Source: a bacterium (lineage in GTDB: Bacteria; Bdellovibrionota; Bdellovibrionia; Bdellovibrionales; Bdellovibrionaceae). From it: a stretch of 64,000 nucleotides of DNA. Below the pieces are notes generated by a model that ran no database searches, had not been told where the DNA came from, and was given only the letters and a program-made list of their open reading frames with translations. Positions 16,749 to 35,594 of the stretch are shown here, piece by piece. Every line of letters starts with the position of its first letter. The stretch's first letter is position 1. Made by a program: the position numbers and the translations under genes. Location of the stretch: contig JAIELP010000001.1 of the NCBI GenBank assembly GCA_019752925.1, positions 62,001 to 126,000 of the forward strand, read 5' to 3'.

Positions 16749-17525
16749 CTAATAGCGATTTTCAAAAAGCTTACAAGCTGGTGTTAAATCTACCTGAGTG
16801 GTACCGACCCAATAATCGCCGTCACGAATCACTTCCACTTTGTTCGTATGGAGTATATCAACTGCCCATCTACTGGCATCAGGCCAAGCAAACCATGTCG
16901 GCGTTTCAAAGTTCTGGACGATAAGCTCACATTCTTCTTTAGGGCGGTGCTGTTCGCAGAACTGAACCCACTTGGGTTGATCTTTCAGCCATGCCCTTTT
17001 ACTAACTGAGGCATACGCAAGCGGACTTTCATAGTCGTCGTTGGTTCGGGCGCATTCAATCCATGTCTCTTGATTGAGTGATATTGTTATCGGCCACAAA
17101 TGGGGCTTGTTACGGGCATCCAAAACTTTTACTGCGCAGACATTTCGGTTGGTGCGGGGGCGCTCCTTTAAGCAGGCATCATCGTCTGGTTTACAAAAAT
17201 ATGGTGTGTGGGTTGAGCACCATAAGGCTACTTTTGAACAAATTGAGGCCCTAGTTTTTTCAGCCTCAACATATTGGGTATATTCGCTTTGAGTCTCTCC
17301 TGAGTTTGGCTTACGAATCTTAACCGCAAAACCAGCAGAGAGTCGGTTATTGCCGTCACAGATGCGCTCATTAGGCTCAACCTGCATAAAGCCGTGATCG
17401 GGGATGTTGCTGAGTCCATCAACTTGACCCTCATGTGTTGTGAACTGATGACCACCGTGAGTTTGCATTGACGAGCAAGACGTTATAAACATTGAGAAGA
17501 TGAGTATCGCAGCTAAGGTTCTCAC
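16749..17525 (-). CDS. Predicted lipoprotein of unknown function
   Basis: 258 residues. The N-terminus has a hydrophobic segment ending in FITSCSS, a lipobox, so the mature protein is anchored by Cys17. At least ten further cysteines in the mature part suggest disulfides. It overlaps the thermonuclease gene by 4 bp and so belongs to the operon 18665-16749. In an element backbone an envelope lipoprotein might take part in DNA uptake, exclusion or transfer, but no family is recognised. Confidence 0.6.
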   Translation of the reverse strand: MRTLAAILIFSMFITSCSSMQTHGGHQFTTHEGQVDGLSNIPDHGFMQVEPNERICDGNNRLSAGFAVKIRKPNSGETQSEYTQYVEAEKTRASICSKVALWCSTHTPYFCKPDDDACLKERPRTNRNVCAVKVLDARNKPHLWPITISLNQETWIECARTNDDYESPLAYASVSKRAWLKDQPKWVQFCEQHRPKEECELIVQNFETPTWFAWPDASRWAVDILHTNKVEVIRDGDYWVGTTQVDLTPACKLFENRY

Positions 17526-18049
17526 GGCTGGTTTTCTTTTGCTGGAACTCGTTTCTTATCGAATTCACACCAGTTGATTTTTTGTTTAGTGCCGCCGTTG
17601 TATGAATAAGCAAGGTGGGCATTCATTACGATTTGGCTTAAAGATTTACCGTCAGCGATTACATCGGCAAGCAGACGGAAGTATTTGTCTCTTTCAATGT
17701 TTATTAAATCAATCCGTTTGGCAGTTGACAGCACTTTTTGAACTAGCTCTTGCGCTGCTCTTGCTTGCTGGCGCTCACACGCTCCATGTCCTGAGATTTC
17801 AGGTGCGTCGATGCCTTTTACTCGAATCGAAATGTTGTGGCCGATGATTGGCGGCACATTTGGAATTTCAACTGTGATTGTGTCGCCATCGTGAGCTTTT
17901 ATATACCGCACACATCTAAACATTTGAGCATCATGCTTACAATCGCTTTTAACTGATAGGGCTTCGTCCAGCTCGGCAAATGCTGGAAGGCCGACTGTCA
18001 GAGGCAAAAATAGCAAGAGTGCTTTCAAGCCATTATTGTACAATTGCAT
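17522..18049 (-). CDS. Secreted thermonuclease (SNase-like)
   Basis: About 175 residues. A signal peptide (ALLLFLPLTVGLPAFAE) precedes a staphylococcal-nuclease fold: HDGDTITVEI, RVKGIDAPEI with the catalytic Arg and Glu, and RDKYFRLLADV with the second catalytic Arg. It should cut DNA/RNA in the periplasm or outside. ATG 18049 is preferred over a TTG 9 bp earlier. It overlaps neighbours on both sides, so it is co-expressed with a membrane protein and a lipoprotein. Such nucleases are common on plasmids and integrative elements. Confidence 0.8.
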   Translation of the reverse strand: MQLYNNGLKALLLFLPLTVGLPAFAELDEALSVKSDCKHDAQMFRCVRYIKAHDGDTITVEIPNVPPIIGHNISIRVKGIDAPEISGHGACERQQARAAQELVQKVLSTAKRIDLINIERDKYFRLLADVIADGKSLSQIVMNAHLAYSYNGGTKQKINWCEFDKKRVPAKENQP

Positions 18050-18665
18050 CACCGCCAAGTCCGAGTAGCGTGGATTGAGTTTTCAAGCGGCCTTTTACTT
18101 TATAAGCTGAGCCCTTAACCATTTGCATAACTAAGTTTTTTGCCTCTTTAGGATAGCTCAACTGAACGTCTTGAATAAAGGAACTCGAGCCGACACATTT
18201 GAATTGTACAGTGAAGCCAGAGAAGACTCCTACGCTGACTTCCACGACCTCGAGCGACCATTCAAAAATCTTGCTGTCGTACTCATCTTTCCACAGTTGA
18301 TCTTTTTGAAGGTCAGAAAGTTTTGACTGCGCATCGAAGTACCTCGTTACTTTAATGCACGACTCTTTTAGTACAGGCTCAGGAGCATTGTTTTCGGCTG
18401 CGCTGACCGATGATGAGTCTGCCACTTTTTTTAAATCTATCGAACTACTGCTGGAGTCGGGCTTCTTACCGCCAAACATTATCGGCAACATTAAAACTGT
18501 AAGCCAAATAAAAGAGATAGCTTTTGCTTTGGTTGAGTACCCTTTGCGCAAAGTGAACCAAGAAAATATGTACGGCATAAAAAAAATGCCTAAACCTAGT
18601 AGGAATGAAACAGTTTTAGCTTGCTCGTTATTTTCAGGCTTTGAGTCGGTGGTTTTGTCTGCCAT
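18033..18665 (-). CDS. Membrane protein of unknown function
   Basis: 210 residues. Two hydrophobic segments at the N-terminus (VSFLLGLGIFFMPYIFSWF; ISFIWLTVLMLPIMFG) are followed by a Ser-rich linker and a soluble domain ending LLGLGGDAIVQ. Not recognised. It is the first gene of the three-gene operon with thermonuclease and lipoprotein, 3 bp after the XRE regulator gene. Confidence 0.6.
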   Translation of the reverse strand: MADKTTDSKPENNEQAKTVSFLLGLGIFFMPYIFSWFTLRKGYSTKAKAISFIWLTVLMLPIMFGGKKPDSSSSSIDLKKVADSSSVSAAENNAPEPVLKESCIKVTRYFDAQSKLSDLQKDQLWKDEYDSKIFEWSLEVVEVSVGVFSGFTVQFKCVGSSSFIQDVQLSYPKEAKNLVMQMVKGSAYKVKGRLKTQSTLLGLGGDAIVQ

Positions 18666-18668
18666 GCA

Positions 18669-19031
18669 TTAGTCCTTCTTTATTCTTGTTAAAAGTCTAG
18701 CTTCAATTGAAAAAATACCGCTGAACGTTGGATCAGGTTCACTTTGGAAAAGCTCGGCCAATGAAATCTCTTTTGCATCAACGGGAGTTGTGGAGCCGCA
18801 TAGGAGCCACTCCATGCTGCAATTCAACGCCCGACACAAGCGTTGCAACGCTATCGGGTCGCTAGGTGCGCCGCCACTCGTGGAATAAATCCAATCGTGA
18901 ATTGTGGCGGGGCTAACTTCGGCAATTGCTGCCGCTGCGGTTTGCGATAAGCCACGCTCTGCTAATATAGCTTTAAGATTTTTAGAAAAAGGGCTATTCA
19001 CCTTTTTTCTTGCAGGCTTTTTCTTGGTCAA
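18669..19031 (-). CDS. XRE-family transcriptional regulator
   Basis: 120 residues. A basic tail (TKKKPARKKVN) precedes a Cro/CI HTH (about 14-75): LKAILAERGLSQTAAAAIAE and SPATIHDWIYS, then LQRLCRALNCSMEWLL. The C-terminal 40 residues are of unknown fold. It probably controls the downstream operon (18665-16749). The 14-bp palindrome at 19087-19100, about 56 bp upstream, is a likely operator. Confidence 0.8.
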   Translation of the reverse strand: MTKKKPARKKVNSPFSKNLKAILAERGLSQTAAAAIAEVSPATIHDWIYSTSGGAPSDPIALQRLCRALNCSMEWLLCGSTTPVDAKEISLAELFQSEPDPTFSGIFSIEARLLTRIKKD

Positions 19032-19218: not shown

Positions 19219-19752
19219 TTAGACTACAAAAACTTTAATTTTACTGACAGTTTGTGTGGCCACGAAACCACCAATTAAGCTACCGAGTAGCCATAACCCA
19301 GCCATACCTACCGCAAGCTCAGCACCAACAGCAGAAAATAGCCCTAAAGAAATCAAACCAAGTGTGAGATTCTGTAAAAATTCAGTACGCTTTAAGGCTT
19401 TAACCTCTTCAATAGTCAAAAAGTAACCTGCGGCAAATAAGCTGATACTCACAAAAGTTACTCCGCAGCCGATCATACAAACACTGTAGCCACCGACGTC
19501 CATAAACCAGTCTGCCAGTGAGTAATTTGTATTAAATGGATTCAGACCAAACTGATGACACACCGATAGCGATAAAAACCCAGTTACTAAATGAATCGCT
19601 AAGATTTTTATAAACACAACCAATGCGCTAGGGTTTATAAGCGAGTGCATCTTTAACATGAGGTCACTGTTTATATCTTTAGGCACTTGGGCATTTTCTG
19701 AATTTAAAAAATCTTGATAATCATTCAGCCATTCATTGTTTTTTTTACTCAC
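19219..19752 (-). CDS. Membrane protein, presumed anti-sigma factor
   Basis: 177 residues with about four membrane segments and a short hydrophilic N-terminus (SKKNNEWLNDYQDFL). It overlaps the ECF sigma gene by 4 bp, the usual arrangement for sigma/anti-sigma pairs. It lacks the HxxxCxxC zinc anti-sigma motif, and its many membrane spans differ from single-span anti-sigmas such as CnrY. The anti-sigma role is inferred from position only. Confidence 0.6.
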   Translation of the reverse strand: MSKKNNEWLNDYQDFLNSENAQVPKDINSDLMLKMHSLINPSALVVFIKILAIHLVTGFLSLSVCHQFGLNPFNTNYSLADWFMDVGGYSVCMIGCGVTFVSISLFAAGYFLTIEEVKALKRTEFLQNLTLGLISLGLFSAVGAELAVGMAGLWLLGSLIGGFVATQTVSKIKVFVV

Positions 19753-20294
19753 GATTTACCTCCTTCACTAACTAGTTCTCTTAGTCGCTTAAGACTACGA
19801 CTAATTATTTGTCTGGCGTTACTCGGTGATACCGCTAAAGATTCTGCAATTTGTTCAAATGTTTGATCGTTTAAATATCGCATTTCGATTGCAGCTTTTT
19901 GTTGCTCAGGTAATTGCCGTAAGTTATCGAGTGCTTGTTCAAATTGCGGCACTGTTTTTTCAAGTTCTTCAGGGATCTGATCTAAATCATAGTTATTAGC
20001 CACCTTGATTTTATTATCTTTTCTAATCTCATCAATCATCACTGTTCGGGTTACTGTAAAAATCCAAGCAAGTAATGGTAAGCTGTCATTATACAGATAT
20101 TTTGATTTATGAATTTTAATAAAAACTTCTTGGTAAACCTCTGCCACTTTTTCACTACTATTAAGACGCTTTTTAAGAAAACCGTAAATTTTAGACGAAT
20201 GACGGCCATAAAGAACTTTAAAAGCCTCTTCGTCGCCGTTCTGATACAGCTTCATAAGCTGTTCGTCTAATAGGTTATCTTTATTTACAAGCAC
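19749..20294 (-). CDS. ECF-type RNA polymerase sigma factor
   Basis: 181 residues with sigma-70 region 2 (EEAFKVLYGRHSSKIYGFL, VYQEVFIKIHKS, LLAWIFTVTRTVMIDEIR) and region 4 (LPEQQKAAIEMRYL, TFEQIAESLAVSPSNAR). Regions 1.1 and 3 are absent, as in group 4 sigmas. A promoter TGTCACAAA-N14-CGTAATA lies 17 bp upstream, and the same pattern precedes the divergent operon and the first RND operon. It is thus probably an autoregulated metal-stress sigma, analogous in logic to CnrH. Confidence 0.88.
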   Translation of the reverse strand: MLVNKDNLLDEQLMKLYQNGDEEAFKVLYGRHSSKIYGFLKKRLNSSEKVAEVYQEVFIKIHKSKYLYNDSLPLLAWIFTVTRTVMIDEIRKDNKIKVANNYDLDQIPEELEKTVPQFEQALDNLRQLPEQQKAAIEMRYLNDQTFEQIAESLAVSPSNARQIISRSLKRLRELVSEGGKS

Positions 20295-20310: not shown

Positions 20311-20340
20311 TATTACGCTAGCCGTAGGCTTTTTGTGACA
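20311..20340 (-). promoter_or_regulatory. ECF promoter of the sigma operon
   Basis: On the minus strand, TGTCACAAA (20340-20332), 14 bp, CGTAATA (20317-20311). Pattern and spacing equal those at 20373 and 26005. It lies 17 bp before the sigma-factor start and indicates autoregulation. Confidence 0.65.
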
Positions 20341-20372
20341 GCAGTTACTATTTAAATTTATTTTATTAAAAC

Positions 20373-20402
20373 TGTCACAAAGTTTTGGTTCAAAACGTAT
20401 TA
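20373..20402 (+). promoter_or_regulatory. ECF promoter of the MerP/cupredoxin operon
   Basis: TGTCACAAA (20373-20381), 14 bp, CGTATTA (20396-20402), 20 bp upstream of ATG 20423. Matches the promoter of the sigma gene itself and that at 26005 in both boxes and spacing. Confidence 0.65.
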
Positions 20403-20422
20403 ACAGGCAAAGGAAGTGCTTT

Positions 20423-21052
20423 ATGCGTTTGATAGCTTCATTATTGCTCGTATTAACTAGCCTGACAGTGTCAGCTCACCCTGTGTCTTATAAAGATGCG
20501 TTGGGCATTATGTCTTATAACAGCACCCAAATGAATGAGATCTTACTGACTTATTCTTTAAATTATAACTATGCCATCGGACACACCTATATAAGAGAAA
20601 AAAACTCTGAGTTTTATATTCCGAGAGTTAATTGGCTTGCCAAACGCTGGAACAATGAGGACTCACAAGGAAATCTGTATTTAAGTGCTGGCTCTGGCTT
20701 TGAAAAATATAACAATGTAACATCAAATGTAAGACTAGGCGAAGTCGTGGCGGATTGGGAAAGTCGCAAGTATTACACCTACCTTGAGCACCTTTATATG
20801 CTTCGAGACAATAAAGACAACCCTCTCTGGCCACAACGAGACGACAACCACACAAAACTACGCTTGGGTTTTGCGCCCTTCTTGGCTGATTATAACGACC
20901 TTAACATCTGGTTTATCACGCAGTGGACTCAGCACAATACTGAAAATATAGAAGCTACTCAATTTATGAGGTTTTATATGAAAAATGTCTTATGGGAAGT
21001 CGGCGCAGACTTCAATGGCGGCTTTGCTTTTAACTTTATGATTCACATTTAA
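20423..21052 (+). CDS. Exported protein, likely small outer-membrane beta-barrel
   Basis: 209 residues. A signal peptide (LIASLLLVLTSLTVSAHP) is followed by alternating aromatic/polar strands such as KYYTYLEHLYMLR, DLNIWFITQWTQH and FMRFYMKNVLWEVGAD. It ends with an aromatic/Ile C-terminus (FAFNFMIHI) that fits a beta-barrel. No family recognised. It is first in a four-gene operon with MerP-like, MerT-like and cupredoxin proteins, under the predicted ECF promoter. Confidence 0.65.
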   Translation: MRLIASLLLVLTSLTVSAHPVSYKDALGIMSYNSTQMNEILLTYSLNYNYAIGHTYIREKNSEFYIPRVNWLAKRWNNEDSQGNLYLSAGSGFEKYNNVTSNVRLGEVVADWESRKYYTYLEHLYMLRDNKDNPLWPQRDDNHTKLRLGFAPFLADYNDLNIWFITQWTQHNTENIEATQFMRFYMKNVLWEVGADFNGGFAFNFMIHI

Positions 21053-21067
21053 TTTAACGGAGGATTT

Positions 21068-21403
21068 ATGAAAAGAATAATTTTAATCATGATGCTTTCA
21101 GCGACAACAGCTTTTTCTAAAAGCGCAAACTCAGATGTAAAGGCACAAGTACCTGCTGTGGAGGCCAAAAGTGAAACTGTGTTGCCTCAAGAACTTAAAG
21201 TTGGCGTGAAAGGAATGGTTTGTGCTTTTTGTGCTCAAGGTATTGAAAAGAACTTTTTAAAGCAGCCTGAAGTTTCAAAAGTTGAAGTGAGCCTGGAAAA
21301 TAAATATGTAAAACTTAAATTCAAAGAAGGTAAAACCTTAGCCAAAGAAAAAATAGTTTCGATCTTAAAAGAATCTGGCTATGAAAGTGTATTTGGTGAA
21401 TAA
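21068..21403 (+). CDS. Periplasmic heavy-metal-associated (MerP-like) protein
   Basis: 111 residues. A signal peptide is followed by one HMA domain with GMVCAFCAQGIE; C52 and C55 form the CxxC metal site (Cu, Hg or similar). The ferredoxin-like pattern continues with VSKVEVSLENKYVKLKF. It would carry or sense metal in the periplasm. Its stop is 1 bp before the MerT-like start, so they probably work together. Confidence 0.85.
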   Translation: MKRIILIMMLSATTAFSKSANSDVKAQVPAVEAKSETVLPQELKVGVKGMVCAFCAQGIEKNFLKQPEVSKVEVSLENKYVKLKFKEGKTLAKEKIVSILKESGYESVFGE

Positions 21404-21404
21404 C

Positions 21405-21776
21405 ATGACTCGGATAAGAGATGGCTTTATAAACTATTTTACACTGTTTGGCTCTATGAGTACTTTAATCTGCTGTGCTTTACCTGCACTGCTTGTCAGT
21501 CTTGGGTTAGGAGCTGTGCTTGCGGGTGTAGCCTCAAATGTGCCCGCACTTATTTGGGTGTCAGAACATAAAATAAAGGTGTTTGCTTTTTCGGCGGCGA
21601 TGTTATCACTTAATGGTTTTATACTTTGGAGAAATAAAGATGCGCCTTGCCCGATAGACCCCAAACTTCGTGATGCGTGTATTACGGGTCGTAAAACTAG
21701 CCGCAATATCTATTTTGTCAGTTTAGGTATTTTTTTAATCGGATTCTTTTTTGCTTACGTTGCACCAATATTATAA
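21405..21776 (+). CDS. MerT-like small membrane protein
   Basis: About 123 residues from ATG 21405; an ATG at 21381 inside the previous gene is less likely. Three membrane segments; the first contains the vicinal pair in LICCALPALLVSLGLG, as in MerT/MerC-type mercury and metal transporters. A second site CPIDPKLRDAC lies in the loop. Next to the HMA protein, it probably takes metal from it across the inner membrane. Confidence 0.75.
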   Translation: MTRIRDGFINYFTLFGSMSTLICCALPALLVSLGLGAVLAGVASNVPALIWVSEHKIKVFAFSAAMLSLNGFILWRNKDAPCPIDPKLRDACITGRKTSRNIYFVSLGIFLIGFFFAYVAPIL

Positions 21777-21788
21777 AGGAGGACGTTA

Positions 21789-22124
21789 ATGAGAGTTTTG
21801 AATATAACCGCAATCGTATTTTGTCTTAGTGTTTTTGCACACGCCCAAGAACCAACACCTACTGTTATTGATTTGGAAGTTACAGAAAAAGGTTTTGTGC
21901 CTAATAAAATTGATGTCGTAACCGATAAACCAGTAGAGCTAAAAATTACCCGAAAAACTGACAACACTTGCTCGACTTCAGTTCAAATTCCATCTTTAAA
22001 ATTAAAAAAAGACCTGCCTCTTAACAAAACTGTAACCATTCCACTTGGGAAACTAACTAAGGGTGAAATTCGTTTCGGCTGTGGTATGAACATGATGGAT
22101 AGCGGAATTATTTATGTTAAATAG
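21789..22124 (+). CDS. Periplasmic cupredoxin-like protein
   Basis: 111 residues. A signal peptide precedes a cupredoxin_1-type fold: EKGFVPNKIDVVTDKPVEL and RKTDNTCSTSVQI. Possible metal ligands are C61, C98, M100 and M103 (GCGMNMM). This type (EfeO/P19-like cupredoxin domain) binds copper in metal-resistance loci. AAAGGAGG precedes the ATG. It is the last gene of the ECF operon and converges with the CsoR-controlled operon. Confidence 0.75.
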   Translation: MRVLNITAIVFCLSVFAHAQEPTPTVIDLEVTEKGFVPNKIDVVTDKPVELKITRKTDNTCSTSVQIPSLKLKKDLPLNKTVTIPLGKLTKGEIRFGCGMNMMDSGIIYVK

Positions 22125-22126
22125 TT

Positions 22127-22816
22127 TTAATCAATTATTTTAACTTGAGCTACTGAGCTGACCACCGAACGAACTCCAACTTTCTCGGAATTGTTTTCGT
22201 TAATTTTAAACTCACCCAGCCAGATACGCTTTACGGCAATCTTCCCATTGTCATTTGGAAGCTGGTTTAAGTATTGAGCGGGCACATTAAAGTCGCCGTC
22301 ATCATTTGTTGAGACTGTTAAGCGACCAGTTAGTTGCCCAGTTGCCGAATAGGTTTCAAAAATTACTTTAACCATAGAGGACGAGGCATCTGCTTTCCAT
22401 TGAAGTTTCAAATCTTTATTTTTTGGCACAATAACTTCATTTGAAAAATCTGGGAAAATTATTTCGATATTATTTCGTAACTCACCTGCATGATTAAAGC
22501 TAAAAGCCTTAAACGCTTCAGAACCTGCAACTTTTAAATTTAAAAACTTACTTTCGTCAGCCACTTGCTCAGTAGTTGTTTCTTTAAAATCACCACTATG
22601 CTGATAAACAATTTGATTCTTATCGGTTATTTTTCTTTTGAGTTTCTGATCTAACCATTCAACCTCAGTACCCGCATCGAAGTACGTCAAATTATCTTGA
22701 GATTTTAACTTACCATTTTGTATTGATGCTGGCGGCGGACTGTTGTGATCATGCCCGTCGTGAGCATGAGCCGACGATAAGACCCATAAAGCTGATAATA
22801 CAACTAAGGTACGCAT
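22127..22816 (-). CDS. Exported protein with His-rich N-terminus
   Basis: 229 residues. A signal peptide ends in SSAHA, followed at once by HDGHDHN, a likely metal-binding tail. The rest resembles a beta-sandwich (LKLQWKADASSSMVKVIF, GDFNVPAQYLNQLP). Not recognised. It overlaps the preceding gene by 13 bp and is last in the csoR operon (25054 to 22127). Confidence 0.6.
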   Translation of the reverse strand: MRTLVVLSALWVLSSAHAHDGHDHNSPPPASIQNGKLKSQDNLTYFDAGTEVEWLDQKLKRKITDKNQIVYQHSGDFKETTTEQVADESKFLNLKVAGSEAFKAFSFNHAGELRNNIEIIFPDFSNEVIVPKNKDLKLQWKADASSSMVKVIFETYSATGQLTGRLTVSTNDDGDFNVPAQYLNQLPNDNGKIAVKRIWLGEFKINENNSEKVGVRSVVSSVAQVKIID

Positions 22817-23121
22817 CCAACGACCTTATTAGCTAAAAATGCAGAACCATCTAACTTTGCATACACCTCAATATCCTTTTCGCAATTAGGTTGTGAAAAT
22901 CTAAATCTAATTAAACGAATCTTACGCGTTAAATCTTGCAGAGTTGAAACTCCAACTAGATTGTTAAAATCAGCCTCTACATACCCCGCTGCATTGTGAG
23001 TAACGTAATCATATGCACTTTCAGTAGTTTTATTGTAGTTAGCCAAAACTGGATGCACACCATGGGCTACTGAGATCTGTGAAATTAACAAAACTGCTGC
23101 TGCTAAATAAATTGATTTCAT
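22804..23121 (-). CDS. Small exported protein
   Basis: 105 residues with a signal peptide (LAAAVLLISQISVAHG). Two cysteines (NCEKDIEVY and the C-terminal VVGCVP) may form a disulfide. Unknown family. GGAGAAAAAAATG gives a plausible ribosome site. It lies in the csoR operon and is probably a periplasmic metal-response component. Confidence 0.55.
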   Translation of the reverse strand: MKSIYLAAAVLLISQISVAHGVHPVLANYNKTTESAYDYVTHNAAGYVEADFNNLVGVSTLQDLTRKIRLIRFRFSQPNCEKDIEVYAKLDGSAFLANKVVGCVP

Positions 23122-23141
23122 TTTTTTCTCCTTTGAAATAA

Positions 23142-23630
23142 TTAATTACTTATAATCTCTTGTTTAGTTGGACATTCTGGAAACCCAGGTATGCCACAAG
23201 GTTCATCTGGGCTTGTTGGCGGTGTTGGCGTGGGCACAGGGTTTGGATTGTTCGGGCAATCTGGAAACCCAGGTATTCCGCAGGGTTGATCTACAGGTTT
23301 AGGTTTGTACTCGTTTTTTGCTAAAGCATTAGTTCTCACCTTATCAAAAAGTACATTCTTGCTAATTGGCTCATGAAAAGAGGCCATTGCAAATAAGGTA
23401 GTTTTGCTATTTGAATAATCTTTTTGTATTTCGTAAGATAAATTGCCGACAATATTATGGTCTGGGGAATCAGAATTTTGCTTAACTAACTCAGGATCAA
23501 CATAATCCATTTCAACTAGAGCCTTAGGTTGCAATTTTTCTTTTATAGGACTGCAAGAAGTTACAAGTAGCATTGTGAATAACACTGAGCTTAATTTCTT
23601 TAATCTAGAAGGTATATTGAAGTTGTGCAT
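23142..23630 (-). CDS. Lipoprotein with duplicated PCGIPGFP motif
   Basis: About 162 residues from ATG 23630 (GGGAGG 3 bp upstream). The N-terminus ends in MLLVTSCSP, a lipobox. The C-terminal 50 residues contain two copies of PCGIPGFP(D/E)CP separated by a Pro/Thr linker. The paired cysteines suggest a metal- or disulfide-forming knot. Unknown family; part of the csoR operon. Confidence 0.6.
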   Translation of the reverse strand: MHNFNIPSRLKKLSSVLFTMLLVTSCSPIKEKLQPKALVEMDYVDPELVKQNSDSPDHNIVGNLSYEIQKDYSNSKTTLFAMASFHEPISKNVLFDKVRTNALAKNEYKPKPVDQPCGIPGFPDCPNNPNPVPTPTPPTSPDEPCGIPGFPECPTKQEIISN

Positions 23631-23667
23631 AACCCTCCCATATCGAAGTACTTTCTTCGCTAGTAAG

Positions 23668-24603
23668 TTATGTATTGCGAGCAAGTCCCAACACTGTCAT
23701 TCTTGCGCTCAGTTCTTTTTGCAGGCCAATTTCAGTGCTATTTATTTTATCGGCTCTTTCTGAAAAGGTACGATTCTCAACTGCATACGACAACTGTGCA
23801 TATATTCTAGCAAATAGCATTTTTTCCATAGCCAGCTTAATAGACTGGCCGCTGTAACGTCTTGTGCTGAGGTCAGAGTTGTTAATTGTATATTTACCTT
23901 GAAAAATCAAAGTTTGTTCTCCTAGTTCACCACCGTAGCTTAAAGTCATTTCATTCGGATTATCTGTAACTCCAGCAAGGGTAACCGCTGCATTTGAGCT
24001 CGGTTGCTCTGTTGGGGAAATTGGCTCGCCAATCCCTGTCGAAGAGCCAGAAGGCACTGTGTAGGTTCCATTTGGAAATTGGCGTACGCCATACAAGTAG
24101 CCTGCGGTTAAAGACCACTCATTTTCTAGTTGATATACAAGACTAGAGTTTAAGGCATAGTAATTGTAATCATTAATCATACGTGCGAGCCTAACCGCTT
24201 GGTTTAGCTCGTACTCACCAGTTAAATTAAAACTCATCTTTTCTGATATAGATTTTTTAACCTGAGCTAAAAAACGATTGTTATAATCTTGATCTTGGTA
24301 GTCAGACGTCTGGGTTGCTTGTGGCTCAGTGTTAAATTGTCTTAATTGAAATTCATAATTTAGATTTAAACTAAGCTCGTCCCCGCCAAAAAAAGAGTTT
24401 AAACTCGGCAAAGCACCAATGTAAGTACCGTATTCATACCCACTACGTAACTTAAAACCAACTGAAAATGGACTTTCGCTGTCACCAACTGAGCTAATCT
24501 TAGTTCGTGATGTGCTTGAAGGTGTCGACGAATGGCTATGTCCCCCATGGGCGAATACTTTTAAGCTAAAAATTGTAAATAAAACTATACTGAGTGTTTT
24601 CAT
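23668..24603 (-). CDS. Predicted outer-membrane beta-barrel protein
   Basis: 311 residues. A signal peptide ends in VFAHGGHSHS, a His-rich tail just after cleavage. The body is made of amphipathic strands (LSLNLNYEFQLRQF, KMSFNLTGEYELNQ, EWSLTAGYLYGVRQF, AQLSYAVENRTFSE) as in outer-membrane barrels. No family is recognised. It starts 1 bp after the stop of the 40-residue membrane peptide, within the csoR operon. A metal or solute pore is plausible. Confidence 0.65.
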   Translation of the reverse strand: MKTLSIVLFTIFSLKVFAHGGHSHSSTPSSTSRTKISSVGDSESPFSVGFKLRSGYEYGTYIGALPSLNSFFGGDELSLNLNYEFQLRQFNTEPQATQTSDYQDQDYNNRFLAQVKKSISEKMSFNLTGEYELNQAVRLARMINDYNYYALNSSLVYQLENEWSLTAGYLYGVRQFPNGTYTVPSGSSTGIGEPISPTEQPSSNAAVTLAGVTDNPNEMTLSYGGELGEQTLIFQGKYTINNSDLSTRRYSGQSIKLAMEKMLFARIYAQLSYAVENRTFSERADKINSTEIGLQKELSARMTVLGLARNT

Positions 24604-24604
24604 G

Positions 24605-24727
24605 CTATTCCACGCAACAACTTTTTTTAGATTTCTTTCGATTAACTATTGAAGAAATAGCTAATTTGCTTCCGACGGCAAGACCAATTAATCCCAACAA
24701 GGCCAAAATTGATATAGCCACATTCAT
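24605..24727 (-). CDS. 40-residue membrane peptide with C-terminal Cys pair
   Basis: Found by reading the csoR-porin gap. It starts 3 bp after the csoR stop and ends 1 bp before the porin start, so it is fully packed in the operon. It is MNVAISILALLGLIGLAVGS, then a basic stretch (NRKKSKK) and the ending SCCVE. One membrane span with Cys-Cys on the cytosolic side is predicted. A metal-handling or regulatory micropeptide is plausible; the family is unknown. Confidence 0.6.
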   Translation of the reverse strand: MNVAISILALLGLIGLAVGSKLAISSIVNRKKSKKSCCVE

Positions 24728-24730
24728 TGT

Positions 24731-25054
24731 TTAACCCTGTCCCTTAACTAATAAAATAATCTCTTCAATTTTTTCTTGAACGATAAATGGATCACGACTT
24801 GCAATTGCCTGCTTTACACAATGTCTCATGTGTCCTTCAATAATAGAAGCCTCTAAACTTTTAAGAGCCGATCTAGCGGCCTTAATTTGCTGAACGATCT
24901 CAGGACAATAGCGACGCTCTTGAATCATTCGCTCTACGCCTTCAACTTGTCCTTTTATTCTACTAAGTCTTTTTAGTTCGGCAGAGTGGTCGTGAGCACT
25001 GTGTTTATGTTCAGGATGTTTATTTGATTTTTTATTTGTTTCTCTATCTAACAT
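24731..25054 (-). CDS. csoR: CsoR/RcnR/FrmR-family metal-sensing repressor
   Basis: 107 residues of four-helix DUF156 type: RLSRIKGQVEGVERMIQERR, then EIVQQIKAARSAL. The copper ligands of CsoR are present: C50 (RRYCPEI), H75 and C79 (GHMRHCV, H-x3-C). A His-rich N-terminal tail (HPEHKHSAHDHS) is unusual. Cu(I) or Ag(I) binding would release DNA. Operator-like repeats lie upstream of its own start and of the divergent gene at 25249. It heads the operon running to 22127. Confidence 0.88.
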   Translation of the reverse strand: MLDRETNKKSNKHPEHKHSAHDHSAELKRLSRIKGQVEGVERMIQERRYCPEIVQQIKAARSALKSLEASIIEGHMRHCVKQAIASRDPFIVQEKIEEIILLVKGQG

Positions 25055-25086
25055 TTAACACCTGCCTATGTGGGTTAGTGCTATTG

Positions 25087-25107
25087 CTATACCCGTGGAT
25101 AGTATAG
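25087..25107. promoter_or_regulatory. Candidate CsoR operator, csoR side
   Basis: CTATAC (25087-25092), 9-bp spacer, GTATAG (25102-25107), 33 bp upstream of the csoR start. The same half-sites and spacing recur at 25200-25220. Confidence 0.6.
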
Positions 25108-25199
25108 GTCAATAATGAATTATATTTTTATATAAGTTTTAAAATTCATATATAAAATCGCTACTATTTTACCTACGCAGCGCAATAAGCCTTTATTAA

Positions 25200-25220
25200 C
25201 TATACTGGTGTAGGGTATCT
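25200..25220. promoter_or_regulatory. Candidate CsoR operator, divergent side
   Basis: CTATAC (25200-25205), 9-bp spacer TGGTGTAGG, GTATCT (25215-25220), about 29 bp upstream of ATG 25249. Its resemblance to the site at 25087 suggests both divergent genes are under the same repressor. Confidence 0.55.
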
Positions 25221-25248
25221 GATCAATAACTTCATAAGGAGTAATTAA

Positions 25249-26004
25249 ATGAATAAAGCTATTGTAATACTTACAACACTGTTTTTAGGCTTATTGAGTT
25301 TTGCCGACCAAGGGCATGGCTCGCGTGTTGAAATTAAAGCCGAGTCTCAAGCCTCTATTGTTGCGGGACAAGTTACTTATGCGTTCAAACTTTTCGATAA
25401 TGAGCAAAATAAAGAAATCAACGATCAAGACTTAAATGAAAGCCATACTAAGAAGTTGCACTTTATTATATACGATGCCGCTCTAAAAGAGTTTAGCCAC
25501 CTTCATCCATCCTTTGATAACTCAAATTGGCAGACAGATATTAATTTACCTAAAAACGGGCAGTATTTTATTTGGGCGCAAGGCGAGCTAATAGATGGCA
25601 CTGAGTTTTCAGCTTCAACTAAAGCCCAAGTTATAAACGGACTGACTGAGAACCAAAAACTTCCTTTGGGCGATGTTCGACTAGGCCTCGACAAGCAAAC
25701 GATCATAGACTTAGCAAAAACAAAAATTAAAGCTGGCAAAATGGTTATGCTTAATTTTAAAGTTTCTCGTAACGATGGCTTGGAGCCGATCATGACTCCG
25801 TACCTTGGAGCATTAGCTCATGTTATTGCAACGCCATTGGCTGGTAATGAGCTTATTCATGTACACCCTATGAATGGCAATACGCCAAATACAGGAATGA
25901 TACACGCCACATTTCCCAGAGAAGGTGAATACAGGCTTTGGGTACAGTTTAATGATCGAGGTGAGTTAAAAACGATTCCCTTATCTGTAATTGTTTATAA
26001 ATAG
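25249..26004 (+). CDS. Periplasmic metal-resistance protein with HLHP/HVHP motifs
   Basis: 251 residues with a signal peptide (VILTTLFLGLLSFAD) followed by two similar halves. Each half has a His motif, FSHLHPSF and LIHVHPMNG, plausible Cu/Ag sites. GEYRLWVQFNDRGE near the end fits an immunoglobulin/YtkA-like beta-sandwich often seen with copper genes. AAGGAG precedes ATG. It lies between a candidate CsoR operator and the ECF promoter of the RND operon. Confidence 0.65.
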   Translation: MNKAIVILTTLFLGLLSFADQGHGSRVEIKAESQASIVAGQVTYAFKLFDNEQNKEINDQDLNESHTKKLHFIIYDAALKEFSHLHPSFDNSNWQTDINLPKNGQYFIWAQGELIDGTEFSASTKAQVINGLTENQKLPLGDVRLGLDKQTIIDLAKTKIKAGKMVMLNFKVSRNDGLEPIMTPYLGALAHVIATPLAGNELIHVHPMNGNTPNTGMIHATFPREGEYRLWVQFNDRGELKTIPLSVIVYK

Positions 26005-26034
26005 TGTCACAAAAACTGTTGTTGTTGCGTAATA
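26005..26034 (+). promoter_or_regulatory. ECF promoter of the first RND operon
   Basis: TGTCACAAA (26005-26013), 14 bp, CGTAATA (26028-26034), 30 bp before ATG 26065. It equals the sigma operon's own promoter in both boxes and spacing. Confidence 0.65.
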
Positions 26035-26064: not shown

Positions 26065-29000
26065 ATGCTAGATCGAATTATTAAGTTTTCGCTTTCAAAT
26101 AGAATTTTCGTGGTTTCACTTGCGGCTTTATTAATGGCTTATGGTGGGTGGATTGCTGCAAATCTACCAGTTGACGTTTTTCCTGATCTTAATAGGCCAA
26201 CAGTTAACATCATGACAGAAGCACCAGGCCTAGCTCCTGAAGAAGTCGAAACGTTAGTGACTTTCCCGCTAGAGACAGCTTTAAACGGATTACCAGGTGT
26301 TGAGCGAGTTAGATCAAATTCTGGTGTAGGACTTAGTATAGTGTATGTTGAATTTTCATGGGGCACCGATATTTATCGGAACCGTCAACTAGTCCAAGAA
26401 AAGCTGACCCTAGCGCGTGAAAAATTACCAAAGAATATTTCTCCTGTAATGGGGCCTATAGCTTCAATTATGGGAGAAATTCAACTCGTGGGCTTAACTT
26501 CAAAAGACCCAGCTATTAATCCTATGGATTTACGAACTATTGCAGACTGGACGATTCGCCCCAGACTATTAAGTATTCCTGGAGTGGCGCAAGTTACATC
26601 CATCGGTGGAGGAGTTAGGCAGTATCAAATACTGCTTTCGGCAGAAAAAATCCAAAAACTACAAATGTCCATTGAAGACATTGAAACAAATTTATCTAAG
26701 ATCAGCCTTAATTCAACAGGCGGATTTATCAATATTGAAAAAAATGAATCACTAATCAGGGTGCTAGGTGCAATTCGTGACAAAGAAGAAATTTTAAATT
26801 CAGTTGTCGGAATGCATTTAGGAAAACCTGTATTGGTTAAAAATATTGCCGAAGTAAAAGAGGCTCCACAAGTGATGCGTGGAGACGCCAGCGTGAATGC
26901 TAAATCAGGCGTGATCATGAGTATTCAAAAGCAACCTGGCGCAAGTACGATTGAGTTAACAGAGCAAATTAGCATAGCACTTAAAGAGTTAGAAAAAACT
27001 ATGCCTAGTTATGTTGAACTTAATCCTGATTTATTTAAACAGGCCACATTTATCGAATCTTCTATCGGTAATGTTAAAATTGCACTAAGGGACGGGATTC
27101 TTTTAGTACTCATTGTGTTATTTCTATTTTTATTAAATTTTAGAACGACGATGATTACAATGACAGCTATTCCGTTATCGTTTGTTTTAACTGCTATCGT
27201 TTTTAAATTGTTTGGTCTGTCGGTCAATACAATGACACTAGGTGGTTTGGCAGTTGCTATTGGTGAATTAGTGGACGACGCCATCGTTGACGTAGAAAAT
27301 GTATTTAGACGTTTGCGAGAAAATAAACAAAGTGCTCATCCTAAAAATACTTTGGTTGTAATATATGAGGCCTCAAGCGAAGTTAGGAATTCAATTGTAA
27401 TTGCAACCGTTATTGTATGTTTAGTCTTTTTACCACTATTTAGCATGGGCGGAATTGAAGGAAAACTTTTTATTCCACTTGGCATTTCATACATAGTTTC
27501 ACTATTGGCTTCAATGGTTATATCTCTAACAGTAACGCCTGCACTTTGTTCGTATCTTTTGACAAAAGGTAAGCTTTTAGAGCACAAGGATGGCGCACTT
27601 GTTAACTGGTTAAAAAAGATTGATACAAGGATTTTGCACAGATCTTTAAAGCATCCATACATAGTCATGGGGGTAACAGCATTTCTTTTTATAGGCGCTG
27701 TGGGTTTATCGTTTACCATGGGCCGAGACTTTTTACCAAAGTTTAACGAAGGCACGGCTACAATATCAATGATGGCTCAACCAGGAATATCTCTTGAAGA
27801 GTCAAATAAGTTAGGAAACTTAGCCGAGATACTAATATTAAAATCACCAGAAGTGAAATCAGTTTCTAGGAGAACTGGTCGTGCCGAACAAGATGAACAC
27901 GCTGAGGGCGTTCACTCATCCGAGATTGATGTGGATTTTAAAGAAGTAGGAAGATCGCGAGAAGTTGTACTAAAAGAAATCAGAGAAAACCTTTCTACTG
28001 TTGAAGGGGTTTATGTAAATGTTGGTCAGCCTATATCACATAGGCTAGATCATTTATTATCTGGTGTAAGAGCGCAAATCGCGATTAAACTTTTTGGCAG
28101 TGATTTATCAACATTAAGAGCAAAAGCCGCTGAAATTAAAAAAGCTATTGAAGAGACAGAAGGATTGGTCGATCTTCAAGTAGAGCAACAAGTTTTAATT
28201 CCACAAGTAAAAGTTCAACTTATGCGAGAAGAGGCTGCAAAATACGGTATAGTCGTTGGAGACTTAGCTCAACTTATGGAAAAAGCACTTCAAGGCGAAG
28301 TTGTTGGGCAAATTCTCGAGGGTCAAAAAAGCATAGATGTATTCATGCGCTTTGATGAAAAATCAAGAACTGATTTAGAGCTTATTCAAAAAACACCAAT
28401 TAAAACATTGCCCGATGGCACTAAAATTTTAGTCGAACAAGTTGCAGATGTTTATGAGTCTAATGGGCCAAACATTATTAATAGAGAAAATGCGCAAAGA
28501 CGCATCGTGGTTTTAGCAAACTCATCTGGTCGCGACTTAAATGGTCTTGTGAGCGAAATACAGAATAAAATTAATAAAAATGTAGAGCTACCAGAAGGTT
28601 ACTTTCTTTCTTACGGTGGGCAATTTGAAAGTCAGCAGCAGGCGGCACGCTTAATGGTTTTCTTAGCGATACTTGCTGTGTTAGGTATTTTTATTGTGCT
28701 GTACATGCATTTTAAATCTACTTTTGTATCTATTCAGGTCATGCTTAATATCCCAATGGCATTTATCGGTGGCATTATTGGTATTTATCTAACCGACAAA
28801 ACTATTTCAGTAGCCAGCTTAGTTGCATTTGTAACTTTGTGTGGAATTGCATCTCGCAACGGTATTATGATGATCTCTCACTACCTTCATCTTATGAAAC
28901 ATGAAGGGGAAAAATTTACTGAGCACATGGTTATACGAGGCTCTCTTGAGCGGCTTGTGCCTGTGCTTATGACCGCGTTAACCGCCATACTAGGTCTGAT

Positions 29001-29208
29001 CCCATTCGCCTTGGCTGGTGGAGAACCAGGCAAAGAAATCCTGCATCCCGTGGCTGTGGTTATTGTAGGCGGGCTCATTAGTTCGACCTTACTAGATATG
29101 TTCGTAACACCAGCTGTATTTTTTCACTTCGGTAAAAATTCAGCGGAGCAAAGTATTTTAAAAATGGAACAAAAATCTGCCTTTGAAGGAGCAAATAACC
29201 ATGTCTAA
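26065..29208 (+). CDS. Heavy-metal RND efflux pump (CusA/CzcA-like), first copy
   Basis: 1047 residues, full length for an inner-membrane RND pump with 12 membrane spans and two large periplasmic loops. The opening MLDRIIKFSLSNRIFVV and YNI-like LPVDVFPDL are typical. In the fourth membrane helix, GELVDDAIVDVENVFRR (about 400-416) carries the essential acidic residues; this variant differs from both classical CzcA (DFG..DGA) and CusA, so the metal cannot be named safely. It exports metal by proton antiport. The gene leads an operon under the predicted ECF promoter but is not followed by an HlyD-type adaptor. Confidence 0.92.
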   Translation: MLDRIIKFSLSNRIFVVSLAALLMAYGGWIAANLPVDVFPDLNRPTVNIMTEAPGLAPEEVETLVTFPLETALNGLPGVERVRSNSGVGLSIVYVEFSWGTDIYRNRQLVQEKLTLAREKLPKNISPVMGPIASIMGEIQLVGLTSKDPAINPMDLRTIADWTIRPRLLSIPGVAQVTSIGGGVRQYQILLSAEKIQKLQMSIEDIETNLSKISLNSTGGFINIEKNESLIRVLGAIRDKEEILNSVVGMHLGKPVLVKNIAEVKEAPQVMRGDASVNAKSGVIMSIQKQPGASTIELTEQISIALKELEKTMPSYVELNPDLFKQATFIESSIGNVKIALRDGILLVLIVLFLFLLNFRTTMITMTAIPLSFVLTAIVFKLFGLSVNTMTLGGLAVAIGELVDDAIVDVENVFRRLRENKQSAHPKNTLVVIYEASSEVRNSIVIATVIVCLVFLPLFSMGGIEGKLFIPLGISYIVSLLASMVISLTVTPALCSYLLTKGKLLEHKDGALVNWLKKIDTRILHRSLKHPYIVMGVTAFLFIGAVGLSFTMGRDFLPKFNEGTATISMMAQPGISLEESNKLGNLAEILILKSPEVKSVSRRTGRAEQDEHAEGVHSSEIDVDFKEVGRSREVVLKEIRENLSTVEGVYVNVGQPISHRLDHLLSGVRAQIAIKLFGSDLSTLRAKAAEIKKAIEETEGLVDLQVEQQVLIPQVKVQLMREEAAKYGIVVGDLAQLMEKALQGEVVGQILEGQKSIDVFMRFDEKSRTDLELIQKTPIKTLPDGTKILVEQVADVYESNGPNIINRENAQRRIVVLANSSGRDLNGLVSEIQNKINKNVELPEGYFLSYGGQFESQQQAARLMVFLAILAVLGIFIVLYMHFKSTFVSIQVMLNIPMAFIGGIIGIYLTDKTISVASLVAFVTLCGIASRNGIMMISHYLHLMKHEGEKFTEHMVIRGSLERLVPVLMTALTAILGLIPFALAGGEPGKEILHPVAVVIVGGLISSTLLDMFVTPAVFFHFGKNSAEQSILKMEQKSAFEGANNHV

Positions 29209-29954: not shown

Positions 29955-31178
29955 ATGGTAAAGGGTTTCTTTATTTTCATGTTGCTTTATAGCGCGAGTG
30001 CAAATGCTTTGATTGGAGTTCAGAATTTAGAAACTAAGTTGTTTGAACAAAACTCAGAGTTATCGTCTTTACAAAAGCAAGTTGAGGCTAAGGAAGCTCT
30101 TTATTCTTCTAGTAAATCTAGTTTTTTACCAACTGTAAATGCCATAGGTGGTTGGCAGAATAATAAGACTGATGCTTCTGCTGTCGCAGAAAAAGGTATT
30201 GTTGGATATATTGAAGGTAGATATAATCTTTTTAACGGGTTTAAAGATAAAGCTTCGTTAAGCCAAAAAGAAGCTGATCTAAATTTATCAAAATATGAAT
30301 ACGAACTCAAACAGCGTGATTTAAAAATTTCGCTAACTGAGATTATAAGTGAAATGCTGTATTTACATCAGCTTCAAGACATATTAGTTGATGAATACAA
30401 AGCTGTGCAGACGCAAAAACTAATGGCGCAAAAGAAGGTGGCGGCTGGCCTTACAGGGCCCGTTGATAACCTTGAGTTCAGTTTACGAGAAAGTGAAATT
30501 GAAATTGAACAAAATCAGATCAATCAACTTCACGACGAGGCTCATCAAAAGCTAACAAAATTATTTGGTGTCGACCTGGCTGATTCTGAGTTCGCAGTCA
30601 TTAAATATCAAAGTCATTCTGAACTAACAAAATTCAACAGTACTTTTGACCATTTAAAAAACCTTGAATATAAGATTGCTGAACAGAACCTTACTAAGGC
30701 AACTTTTGAAAAATCAGAAAGCCGTTCTGACTTTTTGCCCAAACTTGATTTAACGGCCAGTGTCGGAAGACTCACCCCAAGCGAAACTACCCCGACACAA
30801 TATAATGAAAGTAAATATGGCGTAACGCTTACGATACCTTTGTTTTCGGGACTCGATACTTACTATAAAGTTAAGTCATCAAAATTTAATGTTTCCTCTG
30901 CAGAAAAATCACTTGTTCAAGTAGGTAGCAATATTAAATCTGAATACAATATTATTAAAAATAAAATTATAGAGTTGGGAAAACTTTCTCAGATAAATGA
31001 AAAAAAGTTAATTACATCACAAAGTTATTTTAATTTAACTCTTGGCGAGTACCGCCGAGGTATTAAAAACTCACCTGACCTTGTGGGCGCAACTGAAAGA
31101 TTGTTTTCTGTGAGAAAAAAACAGGTAGAGATACTTAAGGATTTAGAAATTTTGAAAATTAAAATTGATACTTTATAA
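29955..31178 (+). CDS. TolC-family outer-membrane efflux protein
   Basis: 407 residues. A signal peptide is followed by the OEP repeat pattern: long coiled-coil helices (LEFSLRESEIEIEQNQINQL, YNIIKNKIIELGKL) alternating with strands (SSFLPTVNAIGG; RSDFLPKLDLTASVG). It forms the outer-membrane exit duct for the RND pump at 26065. It starts 12 bp after the previous gene. No lipobox. Confidence 0.85.
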   Translation: MVKGFFIFMLLYSASANALIGVQNLETKLFEQNSELSSLQKQVEAKEALYSSSKSSFLPTVNAIGGWQNNKTDASAVAEKGIVGYIEGRYNLFNGFKDKASLSQKEADLNLSKYEYELKQRDLKISLTEIISEMLYLHQLQDILVDEYKAVQTQKLMAQKKVAAGLTGPVDNLEFSLRESEIEIEQNQINQLHDEAHQKLTKLFGVDLADSEFAVIKYQSHSELTKFNSTFDHLKNLEYKIAEQNLTKATFEKSESRSDFLPKLDLTASVGRLTPSETTPTQYNESKYGVTLTIPLFSGLDTYYKVKSSKFNVSSAEKSLVQVGSNIKSEYNIIKNKIIELGKLSQINEKKLITSQSYFNLTLGEYRRGIKNSPDLVGATERLFSVRKKQVEILKDLEILKIKIDTL

Positions 31179-33692: not shown

Positions 33693-34925
33693 ATGTCCAA
33701 AAAAGTATTCATGAGCATATTCGTGCTTTTGACTCAGCCGTTGGTTAGCAATGCCAAAGAGGCAAATACATGCCAGCCAACATCTTACGACGAACTCGTT
33801 AAATGTGTTGATTCGGGCTCACTAGAGTCGCAAATAATTAAACAGAAATTAGAGGCAGCTGCTGAGCTTGAAAATGCAGCCTCACAATTTGTAAACCCTG
33901 ACCTAGATGCGGAGACCTTGCGTAAAGATGGTGATAAATCTGAAACCACAGCATCGCTATTATTTAACTTTTCAATCGGCGGGAAAAGATCGGCTTTAAA
34001 AGCCGAAGCTCGCGCAGAAAAAGACAAGGTTATAGCCGAAGCCGACTTAAGCAAAGCCAGTTTTAGATTGGGGCTAATTAAGCAGCTGTATAGACTTAGT
34101 CAGCTCCGCAGTGAAATTCAGATTGAAGAAGAATCAATATCAACCTTCAATAAGATAATTGGACAATTTTCAAGAAGAGCGGCTTTAACACCTGAGCAAG
34201 AAGTTTCAGTTAGCATTTTTAAGATGGCAATTTCAGATCATCAGCTAAGCCTAACTGAACTTAAAAACCTTGAGCAAGAGATTCTGTCAGGCTTAGTTCG
34301 ACTCTCAAACTTAAGTGCCGAGCAGATTATAAAAAACCTGCCAGCAAAGAAAAACACTTGGCCGAAAATAGAAAGTCTTACGACTAGCTTAAAGCAATCA
34401 CCACATTTACGCTTCGCTGAGGCAGAGCTGCAACTTGCAAAGAGCCAAAAAGAAAAAGCAGTGTCCGAGTCGTTCCCTGATTTAAAAATAGGTCCTGTAA
34501 TTAAGAATCAAAAAGATGGCTCATTAAATGAAAACTTTGCAGGTATAGGCCTATCAATGCCGCTACCTATTTTTTCTTTAAATGGCTCAGCAAGAGCTTA
34601 TCAAAGTAAAAAAGTTTTAGAGGCTGAATTAACTTTGCAAAACGAACAGAAAAAACTTGAAGTAATGAAAGCTCAACTTGTTTCAAAATATAATAATCTT
34701 GTGACCAGTTTAAAAAACTCGCCTGACAAAAAAGTGATGGATGACCGTCATGCGAAAATTGAAAGACTATTCTTTGGCGGACTGGTTTCAGGGTCTTTAG
34801 TTATTGAAGCTCATAGACAACTATTTGATCTTGAACAAAAGCGTAACCAAGCCGAGCTAGAAGCTATTGAAGCAATCGGACAGCTATACATTATTGATAA
34901 TGCCTTTGATGGAGTTGTTTTATGA
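33693..34925 (+). CDS. CzcC-like outer-membrane efflux protein
   Basis: 410 residues of OEP/TolC fold. A signal peptide is followed by helix-rich repeats (AAAELENAASQFVNPDLDAE; SKASFRLGLIKQLYRL) and a strand-rich FSIGGKRSALKAEA segment typical of CzcC. It forms the exit duct for the pump at 35595. It overlaps the next gene by 4 bp (ATGA). Confidence 0.85.
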   Translation: MSKKVFMSIFVLLTQPLVSNAKEANTCQPTSYDELVKCVDSGSLESQIIKQKLEAAAELENAASQFVNPDLDAETLRKDGDKSETTASLLFNFSIGGKRSALKAEARAEKDKVIAEADLSKASFRLGLIKQLYRLSQLRSEIQIEEESISTFNKIIGQFSRRAALTPEQEVSVSIFKMAISDHQLSLTELKNLEQEILSGLVRLSNLSAEQIIKNLPAKKNTWPKIESLTTSLKQSPHLRFAEAELQLAKSQKEKAVSESFPDLKIGPVIKNQKDGSLNENFAGIGLSMPLPIFSLNGSARAYQSKKVLEAELTLQNEQKKLEVMKAQLVSKYNNLVTSLKNSPDKKVMDDRHAKIERLFFGGLVSGSLVIEAHRQLFDLEQKRNQAELEAIEAIGQLYIIDNAFDGVVL

Positions 34926-35578: not shown

Positions 35579-35594
35579 CTTTTAAGGATTATAT

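Follow-up and report, generated by a model that had tools for sequence, protein, structure and literature searches.

The window analysed here, a stretch of 64,000 nucleotides (64 kb) from a bacterium of the Bdellovibrionaceae, contains a gene for an extracytoplasmic function (ECF) sigma factor, a gene for a small membrane protein that overlaps it (referred to below as the partner) and a group of metal-related genes. The locus is considered, with a probability of about 0.76, to encode a copper-responsive pair of ECF sigma factor and membrane anti-sigma factor together with its regulon. At the level of sequence, this reading is carried by a predicted promoter class and its conservation, by the gene pair, by a triad of cysteines in the partner and by copper genes among the putative targets. 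The sigma factor very probably reads the promoter box, the partner is probably its anti-sigma factor, and a direct sensing of copper by the partner cysteines appears rather likely.

The box has the pattern TGTCACAAA-N14-CGTAWTA; its generalised form across Bdellovibrionota is TGTCACA-N16-CGTA. The first-pass annotation of this DNA had reported three such boxes with a common 14-bp spacing, had regarded them as one promoter class shared by an autoregulated sigma factor and a metal-stress regulon, and had suggested a genome-wide search for the pattern. The three boxes were confirmed: the window contains three exact matches, against a mean of 0.00 in 100 dinucleotide shuffles, and the same sites are the sole exact matches in the host assembly (2,738,205 bases, 14 contigs, 94% complete; the window corresponds to C3:62001-126000), where the reversed-pattern control gives 0. 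When up to three mismatches are allowed, the host genome contains 51 matches (three exact, two differing at two positions and 46 at three) vs 56 for the reversed control, so additional sites in the window or genome at this tolerance are at background level and were rejected. Since there are only three exact matches and the relaxed matches do not exceed background, the exact box is confined to the sigma/metal locus. The gaps between box and start codon are 16 nt (GTG 20294), 20 nt (ATG 20423) and 30 nt (ATG 26065), and the third box starts immediately after the stop codon of the gene at 25249–26004; the orientation and position of the boxes suit promoters.

A looser pattern, TGTCACAA-N14..16-CGTAW, was counted in 59 genomes, host included, which were split into 21 with a close orthologue of the ECF gene and 38 others. 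Judging from matching contigs (e.g. locus L055, which corresponds to genome G013), the genomes of the relative searches should belong to Bdellovibrionota. The 21 genomes contain 51 box sites vs five reversed-control sites, with at least one site in 20 of them. The partner gene stands beside the ECF gene in 20 of the 21; the group includes genome G049, whose contig breaks off within the ECF gene so that the partner is not visible. The 38 other genomes, including six with distant ECF–partner pairs (G005, G009, G018, G025, G036 and G057), contain 16 box sites vs 13 in the reversed control, with at least one site in 12 genomes. As far as these counts go, enrichment of the box is limited to genomes with a close ECF orthologue, and the box tracks the ECF gene.

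The surroundings of the ECF gene were compared in 77 genomes, one locus each, selected because they are close or because they represent a range of families. Altogether, 87 loci were fetched; the ten outside this sample are five duplicates (L057, L058, L059, L061 and L065), three named records (L063, L069 and L070) and two loci without an ECF match (L152 and L158). A strict box, TGTCAC-N15..18-CGTA, was sought in a 430-base stretch surrounding the ECF start (136 bases in L128). It is present on the ECF strand in 49/77 genomes, on the opposite strand in 48/77 and on one or both strands in 55/77, counts that are not independent because many of the sampled genomes are related; at least one strict box was found in 15 of the 17 families sampled. 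The distance from TGTCAC to CGTA is 17 nt in 90 of 99 distinct sites, and several bases not demanded by the search are conserved as well (A7 in 100%, A8 in 93%, A9 in 76% and A/T after CGTA in 90%). In all loci with two recognisable promoters (44/44), these have the same −10 core (43 CGTA, one CGTT), which adds little by itself because the core is nearly always CGTA. The three bases after the core agree within loci at 1.91 of 3 positions, vs 1.39 ± 0.10 for shuffled loci (0 of 2000 shuffles), although figures of this kind are inflated by the relatedness of the genomes. These comparisons strongly support a single, presumably ECF-dependent promoter class with autoregulation, as first proposed.

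Four loci with distant ECF pairs from genera g6 and g1 (L053, L031, L033 and L172) keep the −35 element TGTCACAA and have the −10 core CCTA, not CGTA. Such CCTA-core loci could serve to map −10 specificity onto region 2 of the ECF sigma factor.

The sigma factor scores over the cut-offs for PF04542, PF04545/PF08281 and TIGR02937, which places it among ECF sigma factors. Sigma and partner genes follow each other on the same strand in 84/87 loci (five of these being from duplicate genomes), the partner gene being directly downstream, and the two overlap by 4 bp in 9/20 cases, window included. A profile search found the partner family in 194/368 genomes, phylum-wide. Named records with a partner gene comprise Bdellovibrio sp. 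qaytius (L055, genome G013; L038), which shares the layout of the window, metagenome-assembled genomes of Bdellovibrionales and Pseudobdellovibrionaceae, and two of Bacteriovoracaceae; no plasmid copies of the partner (tblastn) or of the barrel gene described below were found at E ≤ 0.01. Locus L155 (G174:C30:27500-33500) contains three partner-family and two ECF matches within 6 kb, a local duplication of the switch, and genome G174 has six partner-family matches in the profile search. Loci L152 and L158 have partner homologues, and no ECF gene was detected in the fetched 6.5 kb.

Residues C65, Q67, C92, C96 and W154 of the partner are invariant in 89/89 aligned rows; seven divergent partners (L041, L046–L050 and L052) were left out of alignment A2, and L068, with a broken frame, was left out of alignment A3. 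After removal of the five known duplicates, 84 partners remain, of which 51 have exactly three cysteines. An AlphaFold2 model built from 17 sequences (predicted local distance difference test score, pLDDT, 87.9) contains helices at residues 2–16, 25–39, 43–64, 79–111, 114–122, 124–141 and 148–176. The mean number of lysines and arginines is 4.9 at the N-terminus, 3.4 in the middle loop and 2.3 at the C-terminus, but just 0.37 and 0.12 in the loops that follow helices 43–64 and 124–141, respectively. Because of this charge bias, both termini are predicted to be cytoplasmic and the two short loops periplasmic. In this topology, C65 would be located at the periplasmic end of the first transmembrane helix (TM1) and C92 and C96 in the periplasmic part of the second (TM2); the N-terminal helices 2–16 and 25–39 are predicted to be cytoplasmic.

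Thiol-based control of an ECF sigma factor by the product of a neighbouring gene is a property of zinc anti-sigma (ZAS) factors, such as RsrA and ChrR, and is also proposed here. In ZAS factors, the zinc domain is cytoplasmic, whereas the partner cysteines are predicted at the periplasmic or membrane side. The ZAS motif HxxxCxxC is found in 0/84 partners, which rejects ZAS membership and agrees with the first-pass annotation, according to which the partner lacks this motif; three invariant cysteines are present instead.

A close parallel is sigma-F/NrsF of Caulobacter crescentus, in which NrsF is a six-helix membrane regulator with two conserved cysteines needed to hold sigma-F targets at their basal level (PMC3511200); the sigma-F regulon is induced by copper and a sigF mutant is copper-sensitive (PMC3511200, PMC8224329). 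Like the system proposed here, it combines an ECF gene with a multi-helix negative regulator of the inner membrane bearing conserved, probably periplasmic cysteines, and it has an autoregulated shared promoter. NrsF differs, however, by its six helices and two conserved cysteines from the partner with its four helices and three cysteines (CxQ...CxxxC), and the known targets of sigma-F, DUF692/DUF2282 clusters and a sulfoxide reductase, differ from the efflux genes found here. Membership of the NrsF family was rejected, as PF06532 is unmatched in 20 partner family members at E ≤ 1 (no profile–profile comparison was made); PF06532 has no match in the host genome either, the Caulobacter control being positive. 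By analogy, the pair may work like sigma-F/NrsF, but the partner is not detectably of the NrsF family. The sensing mechanism, which according to the first-pass annotation may be new, is so only in part, because NrsF is already a multi-helix membrane anti-sigma factor with conserved, probably periplasmic cysteines (PMC3511200).

An ECF41 promoter, TGTCACA-n16-CGTC, was shown experimentally (PMC3426412). Since ECF41 promoters use this −35 element and spacing, TGTCACA with the spacing found here represents a genuine ECF promoter type. The −35 element and spacing are identical, but the −10 element is CGTC there and CGTA here. ECF41 sigma factors are controlled by a fused C-terminal domain, whereas the sigma factor of the window has no SnoaL-like C-terminal extension or extra domain, is accompanied by a membrane partner and has different targets; ECF41 membership was rejected. 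In Myxococcus xanthus CorE and CorE2 (ECF44/ECF238), copper is sensed by the sigma factor's own cysteine-rich C-terminal domain and CxC linker (PMC3107203, PMC8999054, PMC10141476). CorE and CorE2 resemble the present system as copper-linked ECF sigma factors that govern genes for multicopper oxidases and P-type ATPases. The aligned ECF orthologues, however, are cysteine-free in 14/20 cases and have CxC in 0/20, which argues against a built-in sensor of the CorE type and against membership of CorE/ECF238.

The operon behind the second box had been described as a MerP/MerT/cupredoxin operon. These genes are present; its first gene, omitted from that description, encodes a predicted outer-membrane barrel, and the most probable MerT start is corrected to ATG 21405. 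The barrel model (pLDDT 79.3) has outer-membrane porins, e.g. NanC, OmpG and KdgM, among its best fold matches. In all 19 aligned barrel homologues, the mature protein is predicted to begin with His-Pro (HPV in the window protein); the N-terminal histidine of the mature barrel could bind copper. The coordinates of the pair, boxes and target genes are listed in Table 1.

Table 1. Features of the sigma/metal locus (positions within the window)
Feature	Position	Strand	Remarks
ECF sigma factor	19749..20294	-	181 aa; consists solely of regions 2 and 4; cysteine-free; lacks a C-terminal extension
Candidate membrane anti-sigma factor (partner)	19219..19752	-	177 aa; four predicted membrane helices; 4 bp overlap with ECF gene
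Partner Cys65 codon	19558..19560	-	Invariant (alignment)
Partner Cys92 codon	19477..19479	-	Invariant (alignment)
Partner Cys96 codon	19465..19467	-	Invariant (alignment)
Promoter 1 (predicted, autoregulatory)	20311..20340	-	TGTCACAAA-N14-CGTAATA; before ECF gene
Promoter 2 (predicted)	20373..20402	+	TGTCACAAA-N14-CGTATTA; before barrel–MerP–MerT–cupredoxin operon
Promoter 3 (predicted)	26005..26034	+	TGTCACAAA-N14-CGTAATA; before RND pump 1
Predicted 12-strand outer-membrane barrel (DIV209)	20423..21052	+	First gene of target operon
MerP-like periplasmic heavy-metal-associated (HMA) protein	21068..21403	+	Family search
MerT-like membrane protein	21405..21776	+	Name from first-pass annotation; no Pfam or NCBIfam match
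Cupredoxin-like protein	21789..22124	+	PF13473
CusA/CzcA-family resistance–nodulation–division (RND) pump 1	26065..29208	+	TIGR00914
Outer-membrane efflux protein	29955..31178	+	PF02321; probably in RND1 operon

A survey of the fetched loci yielded 118 box sites, nine of them flagged inside coding sequence. These lead into the ECF gene (51), the barrel gene (15) or a gene run with an RND pump (17); a further 28 lead into genes unlabelled by comparison with the window, and seven have no run of open reading frames (ORFs). The barrel gene behind a box is usually followed by MerP and MerT genes, and boxes precede RND1 operons in L034, L038 and L045, as in the window. In the 21 close-orthologue genomes, 14 sites are far from the ECF gene (L071–L084), seven inside ORFs, regarded as background, and seven intergenic; five of the latter precede RND or P-type ATPase genes (L075, L076, L078, L082 and L083), one precedes a 31165-like gene (L073), and in L080 nothing clear follows. 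The 16 sites of the 38 other genomes comprise six inside and six outside ORFs (L091–L102; locus L096 of genome G010, considered below, is one of the six outside), one inside an ORF in G025, an unclear one in G036 and two in G057, each just upstream of a barrel gene.

The metal regulon of the first-pass annotation is narrowed to a probable copper regulon because of these target genes. Three CopA-type ATPases score over the TIGR01511 copper cut-off; the one in L044 follows the partner in the ECF operon, and those in L034 and L047 are nearby in location only. The L043 ATPase, encoded in an operon behind a box, and the L075 ATPase, behind a remote box, have the motifs CPC, YN and MSLSSVSV, which we take to be typical for Cu(I). 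Multicopper oxidases of the copper_res_A (PcoA) type are encoded in L046 and L047, the gene at L047:16456 being directly behind a box.

In the proposed mechanism, the cytoplasmic N-terminal two-helix segment of the partner would hold the sigma factor at the membrane when copper is absent. Excess copper, most likely Cu(I), would be bound at the periplasmic face by C65 (end of TM1) and by C92 and C96 (early TM2), altering the helix packing of the partner and freeing the sigma factor. RNA polymerase with the freed sigma factor would then read TGTCACAAA-N14-CGTAWTA, giving more sigma factor and partner (feedback), the barrel with MerP, MerT and cupredoxin, and the RND efflux system. A broader version is favoured only slightly over even odds: the partner would represent a family of four-helix membrane anti-sigma factors that occurs throughout the phylum, has not been named before and senses copper directly by a Cys3 site (C65, C92 and C96, perhaps with Q67) at the periplasmic membrane face. 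This family would form a general copper switch of Bdellovibrionota, including predators, perhaps replacing a CusRS/CopRS-type system (in the host genome, the one searched, no CopS/CusS-type kinase exceeds its cut-off).

Several results weigh against the copper-switch reading and are given here together with the explanations that compete with it. The relatedness of the sampled genomes, mentioned above, is one of them. The strict box is also missing from the searched stretch in 22/77 genomes; six of these keep the same −35 element with the core CCTA or CGTT, the others have no recognisable box, and one of the 22 offers just 136 bases upstream. The assignment to copper comes from target genes, not response data, and the copper_res_A matches fall below the curated cut-off. 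The MerP/MerT-like genes of the operon could point to mercury, and it is conceivable, if unlikely, that the signal sensed by the pair is a different soft metal (Hg, Ag or Au) or periplasmic redox or disulfide stress. In C. metallidurans, Au and Ag as well as Cu elicit a response of the gig cluster (PMC8224329), and three thiols could form disulfides. Copper is nevertheless preferred as the signal, since targets elsewhere include a copper ATPase and a copper_res_A-type oxidase, and the host genome has no MerA over the cut-off, two related flavoproteins falling below it.

The partner itself has no Pfam or NCBIfam family match; among 20 of its homologues, Pfam matches are weak and scattered, with none to NrsF, and a comparison with the PDB gave no fold match at E ≤ 0.001 and no sequence match. 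This lack of similarity to described anti-sigma families would suit a partner that is co-regulated and transports copper or acts as a thiol protein, with CxxxC and CxQ motifs that could serve transport or thiol exchange, beside a sigma factor that reads the box and is controlled otherwise, for example by its synthesis alone. Such an arrangement is less probable still: the partner gene adjoins the ECF gene in nearly all loci, often with the 4-bp overlap, the pair remains constant while target genes vary between genomes, the conserved N-terminal helical segment is predicted to be cytoplasmic, and the sigma factor, which lacks any further domain, is mostly cysteine-free. An anti-sigma role for the partner is therefore preferred.

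It is very unlikely that the boxes are operators of another regulator, such as a CueR activator or a CopR-type response regulator, with the ECF gene merely one of its targets. A CsoR-like gene is located nearby (24731–25054), and a MerR/CueR-like ORF, read from its start and not by a family search, adjoins the ECF gene in L034. In genome G010 (G010:C108:34700-40700), a 31165-like gene and an RND1 homologue are preceded by a good box, TGTCACAA...CGTAATA, and neither ECF gene nor partner was detected in this genome, which may reflect loss, an assembly gap or a different sigma factor reading the box. The box, however, is asymmetric and bipartite, with fixed spacing, is oriented to each gene near its start codon, has the −35 element and spacing of an experimentally shown ECF promoter type (PMC3426412) and tracks ECF presence; no CopS/CusS-type sensor kinase scores over the cut-off in the host genome. 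A chance similarity of the three boxes has practically no probability left, being rejected statistically by the shuffles, the genome specificity and the conservation in relatives, with no point found in its support.

ECF/anti-sigma pairs, copper-responsive ECF sigma factors and thiol anti-sigma factors are already known in kind. In the open-licence literature of PubMed Central, none of the partner family, the promoter code and a copper regulon of Bdellovibrionota was found, nor anything direct on a copper ECF sigma factor in this phylum. According to a 2012 study, two Bdellovibrio ECF genes have no recognisable adjoining anti-sigma gene (PMC3464611). The ECF gene bd0881 of Bdellovibrio is not the gene considered here, as the bd0881 primer matches at 832516 in genome G188 and the partner-family gene is located at 1650164; primers for bd0743 had no match in the six short loci searched. 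For this phylum of predatory bacteria, whose ECF control has hardly been described, the locus offers a candidate copper regulon together with its promoter code. The partner adds a candidate anti-sigma family whose thiol site is compact and located in the membrane, and would represent another way, besides NrsF and CorE, of coupling copper to an ECF sigma factor. The −35 element TGTCACA has been called ECF41-specific (PMC3426412); the present results suggest that an ECF group other than ECF41 also uses it.

A second set of genes for an outer-membrane efflux protein and an RND system, at 33693–38729, has no ECF box, and the CsoR-like repressor gene is part of the metal island and has no box. The sigma–partner pair is followed on the same strand, at 16749–19031, by genes of unknown role and a gene for a Cro/C1-type helix–turn–helix protein (18669–19031). 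DNA to the left of the metal island has a higher G+C content, and this change may mark an island boundary.

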